This document shows, piece after piece, positions 30,062 to 38,880 of a stretch of DNA of 64,000 nucleotides (within the stretch, counting starts at the first letter, position 1; each line of letters opens with the position of its first letter). The stretch is taken from the NCBI RefSeq assembly GCF_029457495.1, contig NZ_CP120361.1, positions 2,496,001-2,560,000 on the forward strand. Direction: 5' to 3'. The notes beneath the pieces are model-generated. The model did no database searches. It was not told the DNA's origin and worked only from the letters and a program-made list of their open reading frames with translations. The position numbers and the translations under genes are program-made. The DNA comes from Chelativorans sp. AA-79 (GTDB lineage Bacteria; Pseudomonadota; Alphaproteobacteria; Rhizobiales; Rhizobiaceae).

Positions 30062-30090
30062 TTGTCTAGCGAGCAGCGCTGCGCTAGATA
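30062..30090 (+). promoter_or_regulatory. Sigma70-type promoter of the repair cassette
   Basis: TTGTCT (30062-30067), exactly 17 nt, TAGATA (30085-30090). The spacer holds a near-perfect inverted repeat (TCTAGCG 30065-30071 with CGCTAGA 30082-30088, inner CAGCGCTG palindrome). The LexA box begins 2 nt after the -10 element, the expected layout for a LexA-repressed promoter. Confidence 0.7.
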
Positions 30091-30091
30091 A

Positions 30092-30106
30092 GAACAAAAG
30101 AAGAAC
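30092..30106 (+). promoter_or_regulatory. LexA (SOS) box, perfect GAAC-N7-GAAC
   Basis: GAAC (30092-30095), AAAAGAA, GAAC (30103-30106). This is the exact alphaproteobacterial LexA consensus (GTTC-N7-GTTC on the other strand). It lies over the predicted transcription start and 15 nt before the GTG of the radical SAM gene, so bound LexA would block transcription. Confidence 0.85.
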
Positions 30107-30120
30107 AATGGAGTTTCGCC

Positions 30121-31353
30121 GTGCCCCTCACACTGCTGCAGAAGCTGGAGATACTGGCCGACGCCGCCAAATACGACGCCTCCTGCGTCTCGTCGGGCGG
30201 AGAGAAGCGCAGGGCCGGCAAGGGCATCGGCTCGGTCACGGGGCAGGGCATCTGCCACGCTTTCACCCCGGATGGCCGCTGCGTTTCGCTCCTGAAGGTG
30301 CTGCTCACCAATTTCTGTATGTATGACTGCGTCTATTGCGTCAGCCGGCGATCCAGCAACGTGCCGCGCGCCCGGTTCAGCGTGGACGAGGTGGTCAAGC
30401 TCACCCTCGACCTGTACCGGCGCAATTGCATCGAGGGGCTGTTCCTGTCCTCCGGGATCGTGCGCTCGGCCGACGATACGATGGCGGATCTGGTCCGCGT
30501 CGCGAAGGCGCTTCGGGAGGAGCATGGCTTTCGCGGCTACATACATCTGAAGACCATTCCGGGTGCGAGCGCGGAGCTCCTCAACGAGGCGGGGCTTTAT
30601 GCCGACCGGCTGTCGATGAATGTCGAACTTCCGGCCGAAGCCGCGCTTGAAAAACTGGCGCCGGAAAAATCGGCCGCCGATATCAAGCGAGGGCTCGCCC
30701 GCACCCGCGCGCAGATCGAGGCGTTCAGCGAGCCGGCGCGCGCGGGGCGCGCCGGGCCGCCGCGTTTCGCCCCGGCAGGGCAGAGCACGCAGATGGTGGT
30801 GGGGGCGGATATGTCTTCGGATCGTGACATTCTCCGCGCAAGCAGCCGTCTTTATGCCTCGTATGCGCTGCAGCGCGTCTATTATTCTGCATTCAGCCCG
30901 ACCGGCCACCCTTCCGCGGGCCTGCCGGACGAACCCACGCCGCTCCTGCGCGAACATCGCCTCTATCAGGCCGATTGGCTGCTCCGCTTCTACGAGTTCT
31001 CGCTTCCGGAGGTGGAGGAGGCCATGCCCGGCGGCATGCTGGACCTGTCGATCGATCCCAAGCTCGCTTGGGCGCTTGCCCATCGCGATGCGTTTCCCGT
31101 CGATGTCAACCGGGCCAGCCGCGAAATGCTTTTGCGTGTGCCTGGCCTTGGCACACGGGCGGTGGACCGCATCGTCGCATCGCGCCGGTACGCCACGCTT
31201 CGCATGGGCGAGCTTGCACGTTTGACCGGCTCCATCCAGCGTATCAGACCCTTCGTCGTGACGCCGGATTGGCGCCCGGGCGGGCTGCTGGAGGCGGAGC
31301 GGCTGAAACAACGGTTTACGCCGAAGCCGCGGCAGCTTTCGCTGGCACTTTGA
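30121..31353 (+). CDS. Radical SAM protein linked to UDG (putative DNA modification/repair, TIGR03916-like)
   Basis: 410 aa. GTG start at 30121 with TGGAG 7 nt upstream; an ATG at 30108 is out of frame. Radical SAM 4Fe-4S motif C66, C70, C73 (CMYDCVYC), which binds S-adenosylmethionine, within a TIM-barrel (SLLKVLLTNFC ... LFLSSGIVRS ... GYIHLKTIPGAS). The C-terminal ~325-360 is a helix-hairpin-helix (VDVNRASREMLLRVPGLGTRAVDRI), a non-specific DNA-binding element. The family is known by its constant linkage to a UdgX-family gene and is assumed to act on damaged or modified DNA, like spore photoproduct lyase; its reaction is not established. LexA-controlled here, and the next gene begins 1 nt after its stop. 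Confidence 0.9.
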   Translation: MPLTLLQKLEILADAAKYDASCVSSGGEKRRAGKGIGSVTGQGICHAFTPDGRCVSLLKVLLTNFCMYDCVYCVSRRSSNVPRARFSVDEVVKLTLDLYRRNCIEGLFLSSGIVRSADDTMADLVRVAKALREEHGFRGYIHLKTIPGASAELLNEAGLYADRLSMNVELPAEAALEKLAPEKSAADIKRGLARTRAQIEAFSEPARAGRAGPPRFAPAGQSTQMVVGADMSSDRDILRASSRLYASYALQRVYYSAFSPTGHPSAGLPDEPTPLLREHRLYQADWLLRFYEFSLPEVEEAMPGGMLDLSIDPKLAWALAHRDAFPVDVNRASREMLLRVPGLGTRAVDRIVASRRYATLRMGELARLTGSIQRIRPFVVTPDWRPGGLLEAERLKQRFTPKPRQLSLAL

Positions 31354-31354
31354 G

Positions 31355-32782
31355 ATGCTTACGGTTCCGCTCCCGGAGGATTGCGTCCCGGAGGAATTCC
31401 GGGACGCGGCGCGGAGATGCCTGGCGCGCGGGCTCGCACCCGAACAGGTGATGTTTTCAACCGGTGAGGAGCTTTCCCTGTTCAGCGAAGACGGTGGAGA
31501 AGAACTGGAGCCTCTGGCCGTCAAGGTCCCGCGCGCGTACCCGAAACTGGTCGCAAAAGTCATCTGTCACAACGCGCCAGACCGGTTTGCGCTGCTTTAT
31601 CGGCTTCTCTGGCGCATACACAGCGGTGAGCGCCACGTTCTGCAAATCTCCGCCGACCCGGATGTCATCTGCGCAATGCGCTATGCCAGGGCGGTCGACA
31701 AGGTTGTCTATCGTATGCATGCCTATGTGCGCTTTGCGGAACGTGAGATCGAGGGGGAGAAGGTTTTCGCGGCTTGGCACGAGCCGCAGCATCGGGTTCT
31801 GCGCCTTGCGGCTCCCTTTTTCGTCGACCGCTTCAGCAATATGGAATGGCTGATCGCCACGCCTTTCGGCACCATCGCATGGCGCAGGGGCGAACTGATT
31901 TTCGGTCCGCCGGCAGCGCGGCCTGCGGAGCGAGGCGACGAGGTGTTGGACGAGCTTTGGACGGCTTACTACCGGACCACCTTCAACCCGGCCCGCCTTC
32001 GCGTGAAGGCAATGGTGGCGCAGATGCCGAAGCGGCACTGGAACACGATGCCCGAGACCGCGCTGATCCCCGATATGGTGCAGACTGCAGGCCTTCGGGT
32101 GGAGGCGATGCAGAGCCGAACGCCCGACACGCCGCCGCGCTTTGCCGCGGCGGTTACCCAGCGCATTGCGGCAAAGCCGCCGGAAACCGGGCACGCACCG
32201 CTCGACGTCCTGCGCCGCGAGGTGCAGGAGTGCCGCTTGTGTCCCTTGCATGGGCCGGCGACGCAGGCCGTGTTCGGGGAGGGAGCGCCGGAGGCATCCA
32301 TCATGTTTGTCGGCGAACAGCCGGGCGATCAGGAGGATCTGAACGGACGGCCTTTTGTCGGGCCTGCCGGCCAGATTTTCGATCGGGCTTTGGCGGAAGC
32401 AGGAATCGAGCGCGCGAAAGCCTATGTCACGAATGCGGTGAAGCACTTCAAGTTCGAGCCTCGCGGCAAGCGCCGCGTCCACATGAAGCCCAGCGCCGGA
32501 GAGATTACAAAGTGCCGCTTCTGGCTGCGACGCGAGATCGTGGCCGTCAGGCCGAAGCTGGTGGTGGCGCTCGGCGCCACCGCGATGCTGGGCCTCACCG
32601 GCCAGTCGGTAGCCGTTACGAAAGAGAGGGGGAATGTCCTGTTTTTCGATGGCCTTTCGATCCTGGTCACCGTTCACCCGTCCTACATTCTGCGATTGCC
32701 GGAACCGGACATGGCGGAACTGGAGTATGGCCGCTTCGTCGCGGATTTGAAAACCGCCGGGCAGCGGCTCGCAGCGGCTTGA
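31355..32782 (+). CDS. DUF4130 - UdgX uracil-DNA binding fusion protein
   Basis: 475 aa in two parts. Residues ~1-250 are the DUF4130/TIGR03915 domain (VPRAYPKLVAKVICH, DRFALLYRLLWRIHSGERH, MHAYVRF, FAAWHEPQHRVL, FFVDRF, WTAYYRTTFNPAR, AMVAQMPKRHW), function unknown. Residues ~280-472 are a family-4-like uracil-DNA glycosylase of the UdgX subgroup: Fe-S cysteines C293, C296, C387, the GEQPGDQEDLNGRPFVGPAGQ pocket, NAVKHFKFEPRG, and the insertion loop KRRVH with H376, which in Mycobacterium UdgX attacks the deoxyribose and leaves the enzyme covalently bound to the uracil site. C-terminal VTVHPSYILR motif. Translated 1 nt after the radical SAM gene, under the same LexA box. Confidence 0.92.
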   Translation: MLTVPLPEDCVPEEFRDAARRCLARGLAPEQVMFSTGEELSLFSEDGGEELEPLAVKVPRAYPKLVAKVICHNAPDRFALLYRLLWRIHSGERHVLQISADPDVICAMRYARAVDKVVYRMHAYVRFAEREIEGEKVFAAWHEPQHRVLRLAAPFFVDRFSNMEWLIATPFGTIAWRRGELIFGPPAARPAERGDEVLDELWTAYYRTTFNPARLRVKAMVAQMPKRHWNTMPETALIPDMVQTAGLRVEAMQSRTPDTPPRFAAAVTQRIAAKPPETGHAPLDVLRREVQECRLCPLHGPATQAVFGEGAPEASIMFVGEQPGDQEDLNGRPFVGPAGQIFDRALAEAGIERAKAYVTNAVKHFKFEPRGKRRVHMKPSAGEITKCRFWLRREIVAVRPKLVVALGATAMLGLTGQSVAVTKERGNVLFFDGLSILVTVHPSYILRLPEPDMAELEYGRFVADLKTAGQRLAAA

Positions 32783-37724: not shown

Positions 37725-37739
37725 GAACAAAAAGGGTAC
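37725..37739 (+). promoter_or_regulatory. LexA (SOS) box of recA, GAAC-N7-GTAC
   Basis: GAAC (37725-37728), AAAAAGG, GTAC (37736-37739), 58 nt before the recA start; 7 of 8 consensus positions match. A -35/-10 pair (TTGATA 37690-37695, TATTGC 37712-37717) precedes it, so the box would cover the transcription start. Confidence 0.75.
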
Positions 37740-37797
37740 ATAAAACCCAGGGAGATTGGCCGGCGCGGCCTCCATTGAGGACAAGGGGTATTGTATC

Positions 37798-38880
<1,083 letters not shown>

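Follow-up and report, generated by a model that had tools for sequence, protein, structure and literature searches.

A predicted LexA-controlled operon of Chelativorans sp. AA-79 pairing a radical SAM protein with DUF4130 and an apparently optional UdgX domain

The operon and its genes

This work concerns a two-gene operon of the alphaproteobacterium Chelativorans sp. AA-79, located in a stretch of 64,000 nucleotides (contig NZ_CP120361.1, positions 2,496,001 to 2,560,000) that is called the window below. The first gene encodes a radical S-adenosylmethionine (SAM) protein, and the second (31355-32782), separated from it by the single base 31354, encodes a DUF4130 domain fused to a UdgX domain (Table 1). 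An earlier description made from the sequence alone, referred to here as the original prediction, had reported genes one nucleotide apart, a radical core of C66, C70 and C73 joined to a helix-hairpin-helix, the DUF4130-UdgX fusion with H376 in KRRVH, and a perfect GAAC-N7-GAAC LexA box. Each of these was recovered from coordinates, profile matches and motif reading, which confirms that the operon is real and was annotated correctly.

Table 1. Features of the operon (positions in the window)
Feature	Coordinates	Strand	Description
Putative sigma70-type promoter TTGTCT-N17-TAGATA	30062..30090	+	Read directly; weak consensus match
LexA operator GAACAAAAGAAGAAC	30092..30106	+	GAAC-N7-GAAC; overlaps the expected transcription start
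Radical SAM gene (TIGR03916)	30121..31353	+	410 residues, GTG start; CX3CX2C C66/C70/C73; C-terminal helix-hairpin-helix
DUF4130 domain (TIGR03915)	31355..32062	+	Residues 1-236 of the second gene; profile matches
UdgX domain (TIGR03914)	32063..32782	+	Second gene; GEQPG 320-324, KRRVH 372-376, HPS 441

All three family assignments exceed the curated NCBIfam cut-offs: the radical SAM protein scores 538.2 bits with TIGR03916 (cut-off 343.5), DUF4130 scores 177.5 bits with TIGR03915 (112.25) and 116 bits with PF13566, and UdgX scores 307 bits with TIGR03914 (189.95). The operon is a plain member of these families, with no difference noted, and the closest named homologues are Chelativorans proteins. 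The helix-hairpin-helix match of the radical SAM protein (23.2) lies below the Pfam gathering score of 27, and ComEA and RuvA chains are weak matches to the same part.

The UdgX domain carries the trap histidine H376 in its KRRxH loop and the glutamine of motif A, and its cysteines stand at 293, 296 and 387. UdgX chains of the Protein Data Bank (PDB), which we take to be mycobacterial, match the domain at 3e-50, and the solved proteins (6ajo, 6iod, 8iie and others) share with it the KRRxH loop, GEQPG and the trap histidine. The copy in the window differs from them in being fused behind DUF4130 and in belonging to an operon preceded by a LexA box. The trap histidine is kept in 125 of the 126 R-loops found, standalone UdgX included, in a search that demanded the conserved NAVKH stretch and thus leans to conserved copies. 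A standalone UdgX paralogue with KRRIH is encoded in the same genome (813122-813709 of the main contig, L105), and the 300 bases before it contain no perfect LexA box.

LexA control across genomes

The promoter proposed in the original prediction has the 17-base spacer but proved weaker than claimed: TTGTCT matches the consensus in 4/6 bases and TAGATA in 3/6, and a promoter scan called no promoter at this position. It is plausible, since similar bases (CTTGCC and CTAT-like) occupy the promoter position in most aligned same-genus rows. The LexA box alone proves nothing, as one GAAC-N7-GAAC was found in the window against 1.56 expected by chance; its significance comes from its position and its conservation. 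In an alignment of eight rows from seven same-genus genomes it is the sole long invariant block upstream of the operon.

Conservation was followed in three sets of loci. The near set comprises 61 genomes, 20 of which (own included) carry the radical SAM gene, 19 of them over the cut-off. In 20/20 of these loci the 150 bases upstream contain a perfect box, against 0/493 control windows, from which the 300 bases before the gene were excluded. The second set holds 82 loci, 80 from named genomes (Alphaproteobacteria by title, one given only as Proteobacteria) and two from viral contigs; L111 and L128 duplicate L046 and L087, so that two repeats stand among the 82. Here, a perfect box is found in the 200 bases upstream in 76/82 loci, and allowing one mismatch raises the count to 79/82, while control windows, with 500 bases before the gene excluded, contain a perfect box in 17/3319 cases. 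In the third set, drawn from 299 Pseudomonadota genomes, 51 of the 52 non-own radical SAM loci were inspected (G253 was left out, and L059 has no upstream sequence). The alphaproteobacterial box is present in 33/33 loci inside the class that have upstream sequence and in 0/17 outside it. Among those 17, a raw count with no shuffled control gives ten perfect copies of CTGT-N8-ACAG, which is presumably the LexA box of other proteobacteria; three more have it with one mismatch, and four have neither box. Five of the ten loci with the perfect copy (L075, L084, L088, L096 and L097) have no UdgX, which indicates that SOS control goes with the radical SAM-DUF4130 core. The pair is thus preceded by two unrelated LexA box types, one inside the class and the other outside it.

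In the genome of Chelativorans sp. AA-79, the box occurs directly upstream of lexA, near the starts of dinB, uvrA and ssb, and near a gene whose ImuA match is weak (43 bits, cut-off 150). Genome-wide, the pattern is found 147 times and its reversed control 93 times, which means that chance accounts for many copies. For five of six UdgX genes that lack a radical SAM gene in the genome or an adjoining DUF4130, no perfect box was found within 300 bases. The sixth (L106, genome G131) looks like an operon remnant: a perfect LexA box and a UdgX frame are present, DUF4130 is a fragment with an internal stop, and no radical SAM gene was found in the genome.

Predicted LexA control of the operon is very well supported by these comparisons. 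Together with the gene families, it also supports the DNA-repair role given to the operon in the original prediction. We take the radical SAM family of the window to be COG4277. LexA-type motifs before a two-gene COG1573-COG4277 operon were described in Bacteroidetes by comparative genomics, and the same passages state SOS regulation of such an operon as reported for Verrucomicrobia and Alphaproteobacteria (PMC8565304). That operon has the same two gene families and the same regulator as the one described here; the pairing, the SOS control and a repair role are therefore already in print for this kind of operon. The published account, in its passages on the operon, is centred on the glycosylase and gives no role to DUF4130, whereas our comparison makes it the constant partner. 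In Acinetobacter sp. Tol 5, upregulation during desiccation is reported for a gene that carries the annotation of this radical SAM protein (PMC13130816). A different Acinetobacter record contains the radical SAM protein with DUF4130 and, within the stretch examined, no UdgX match.

Partners of the radical SAM protein

A search of these 299 Pseudomonadota genomes for each of the three families gave matches over the cut-off in 53 genomes for the radical SAM protein, in 56 for DUF4130 and in 52 for UdgX. The Caulobacter vibrioides control genome matches all three, TIGR03915 over its cut-off. DUF4130 is present in 53/53 radical SAM genomes, UdgX over the cut-off in 40/53. The 13 genomes without it are G083, G106, G134, G142, G159, G242, G249, G255, G284, G296, G319, G344 and G356; some of them give weaker matches that do not reach the cut-off, of the kind expected from other uracil glycosylases. 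UdgX occurs without the radical SAM protein in 12 genomes.

Besides the window, DUF4130 lies downstream of the radical SAM gene in 151/153 loci, at a distance of about 2.8 kb in L070 and L073. In the two loci where it was not seen, the available stretch ends after 120 bases (L188) or after a hemerythrin-like gene (L191). A few loci have extra genes between the radical SAM gene and DUF4130-UdgX; by eye, these were taken as insertions. A hemerythrin-like HHE gene, likewise recognised by eye, follows the radical SAM gene in L069, L073 and L191, and in L069 and L073 it sits between the radical SAM gene and DUF4130-UdgX; a possible function of such a gene is to assist an oxygen-sensitive enzyme.

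Of 149 scorable rows, counting the window, 128 have UdgX and 21 lack it. When these labels were placed on a FastTree tree of the radical SAM protein, 11 changes were required, at least six of them forced by the starred branches, compared with a mean of 20 for shuffled labels. The tree has 154 rows, five of them without a UdgX label and two of them the duplicates mentioned above; L047 and radical SAM matches shorter than 300 residues were excluded. It joins the two long rows L195 and L196, and such joins are often false. Within the near set, L039 shows no UdgX motif in the available stretch. From these changes and the constant pairing it follows that the UdgX module came and went while the radical SAM protein and DUF4130 stayed together. 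As far as the compared genomes tell, the constant partner of the radical SAM protein is DUF4130 and not UdgX.

This bears directly on the function put forward in the original prediction, in which UdgX covalently marks a uracil or abasic lesion and the radical SAM protein repairs it or releases the adduct. The conserved trap histidine and the single-base gap between the genes speak for such a link; the 13 genomes with the pair and no UdgX over the cut-off, the 12 with UdgX and no radical SAM protein, and the standalone KRRIH paralogue with no perfect LexA box nearby speak against it. In PMC10359453, RecA-dependent pathways or proteases are named as possibly resolving UdgX adducts; the same paper calls the physiological role of UdgX largely unknown. 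As a general function, a judgement that leaves fused proteins aside, the proposal is not supported, and we consider it very unlikely.

Another possible function is abasic-site shielding. SRAP/HMCES proteins protect stalled forks by crosslinking abasic sites, and UdgX could do the same during SOS, with the radical SAM pair carrying out a separate base repair that is only co-regulated. The chemistry of UdgX is known from the proteins whose structures match this domain, UdgX was gained and lost as a module, and the remnant in G131 kept UdgX and its perfect box while the radical SAM gene was not found and DUF4130 was left as a fragment. Against this, most of the loci seen encode UdgX as a fusion with DUF4130, the constant partner of the radical SAM protein, which argues for joint action; such shielding appears unlikely to be what the operon does.

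Proposed mechanism and neighbourhood

Two observations on the core proteins are new in this analysis, the invariance of four residues of the radical SAM protein and a fold model of DUF4130; the alignment sets of both proteins exclude L047 (own), L050 and L059. Besides C66, C70 and C73, the residues C22, C45, H46 and C54 are invariant, which the original prediction did not mention. Three further invariant cysteines thus stand N-terminal to CX3CX2C, and this pattern suggests a second iron-sulfur cluster. The model of the protein is closest in fold to lipoyl synthase and HydE. Lipoyl synthase carries extra cysteines, and in the structures among the closest folds (4u0o, 5exi, LIAS) three of them likewise stand shortly before CX3CX2C; the protein described here differs in its C-X22-C-X8-C spacing, in its added helix-hairpin-helix domain and in that no similarity at profile level was found. 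Spore photoproduct lyase (SPL) is missing from the listed fold matches, which contain other radical SAM enzymes; its absence excludes nothing. The AlphaFold2 model of DUF4130 has a pLDDT (predicted local distance difference test score) of 86.9 and resembles the DHH/DHHA1 fold of RecJ, Cdc45 and family II pyrophosphatase, with middling scores. Visual inspection of every second row of the DUF4130 alignment revealed no DHH metal-binding motif; the resemblance is one of predicted fold, with no sequence support. Residues 196-234, the tail of DUF4130, are very conserved. Among solved structures, no close sequence relative of either protein was found, and no paper giving either of them a reaction was found in a literature search whose coverage mostly did not extend to subscription papers.

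The reading we favour, with about even confidence, is that of an SOS-induced lesion-processing operon in which the radical SAM protein and DUF4130 form the core, working jointly as one enzyme, and UdgX is an optional targeting arm. LexA bound over the start site would repress the operon until DNA is damaged. In the radical SAM protein, C66, C70 and C73 would hold the SAM-cleaving cluster, an auxiliary iron-sulfur cluster would sit on C22, C45 and C54 with H46 as a possible fourth ligand, and the C-terminal helix-hairpin-helix would hold DNA, so that the 5'-deoxyadenosyl radical could attack a damaged nucleotide. DUF4130, presumed to be a DHH/DHHA1-fold domain with lost or altered catalysis, may present the DNA end or lesion, with residues 196-234 as a possible docking surface. 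The UdgX arm, fused in most alphaproteobacterial loci seen, would recognise uracil or abasic sites and, through its covalent DNA adduct, keep the core there.

Several points weigh against this reading. The radical SAM gene is patchy, being found in 20 of the 61 near genomes, which indicates that it is dispensable. DUF4130 occurs without it in 3 of 56 genomes (G259, G276 and G345), with the domain end missing in two of them. In the fold comparison, lipoyl synthase is equalled in score by HydE and other radical SAM enzymes, and residues 23-44 of the model have a pLDDT below 50, so that it says little on the geometry of C22, C45 and C54. The DHH/DHHA1 match lies in the middling range of the tool, with a best Foldseek E value of 0.015 in the PDB. 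Finally, a profile comparison of DUF4130 with RecJ gave nothing; since the same comparison also failed to give a signal between the radical SAM protein and the lipA, miaB and PA0069 families, where a match was expected, the method is too weak here and the RecJ result says little either way.

A broader claim, that the pair founds a class of SOS repair enzymes of its own, is tentative and in our view rather unlikely. In it, a radical SAM protein with a lipoyl-synthase-like second cluster would act on damaged DNA held by a degenerate RecJ/Cdc45-fold subunit, and a bolt-on UdgX would steer it to uracil or abasic sites. The pair is present in 53 of the 299 genomes sampled. DUF4130 as the constant partner and six invariant cysteines instead of three shift experimental priority to radical SAM-DUF4130, ahead of UdgX adducts.

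A mutagenic function has also been proposed, in a passage of PMC3765255, where DUF4130 and the radical SAM protein would modify bases (thymines were suggested) for translesion synthesis and not for repair. The same box type before dinB and before the gene with the weak ImuA match agrees with this idea. Against it, direct evidence is absent and dnaE matches lie near just 5 of the 82 second-set loci, a count that does not tell apart which dnaE is meant and to which no search for other polymerase genes was added; we hold this function to be quite unlikely. The original prediction saw a hint at replication coupling in the adjacent dnaE. The upstream dnaE of the window matches the replicative subunit model PRK05673. 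Within the genus, 1500 bases upstream were inspected in 7 loci including that of the window, and 3 of them have a dnaE match; given this and the count above, the coupling was rejected and the adjacency is regarded as local.

Two further readings of the neighbourhood were discarded. A defence system is not indicated, as PADLOC gave no match. Phage origin was rejected as well: two of the 82 loci come from viral contigs, and the phage-collection records with a homologue may be bacterial. One of these records, CAKLQH020000003.1 (L194), is titled an Acinetobacter phage, contains glyQ, glyS and other housekeeping genes in the stretch inspected and looks like bacterial chromosome.

Some other genes lie close to LexA-type boxes. 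In the window, a box with one mismatch (GAACAAAAAGGGTAC, 37725-37739) precedes a gene at 37756-38880 judged by eye to encode RecA. A radical SAM gene of the PA0069 family (G000:C1:3826348-3827400, L202) stands directly behind its own perfect LexA box, and an open frame of 300 residues with no family match (L198:898-1797) shares its LexA box with a divergent dinB.
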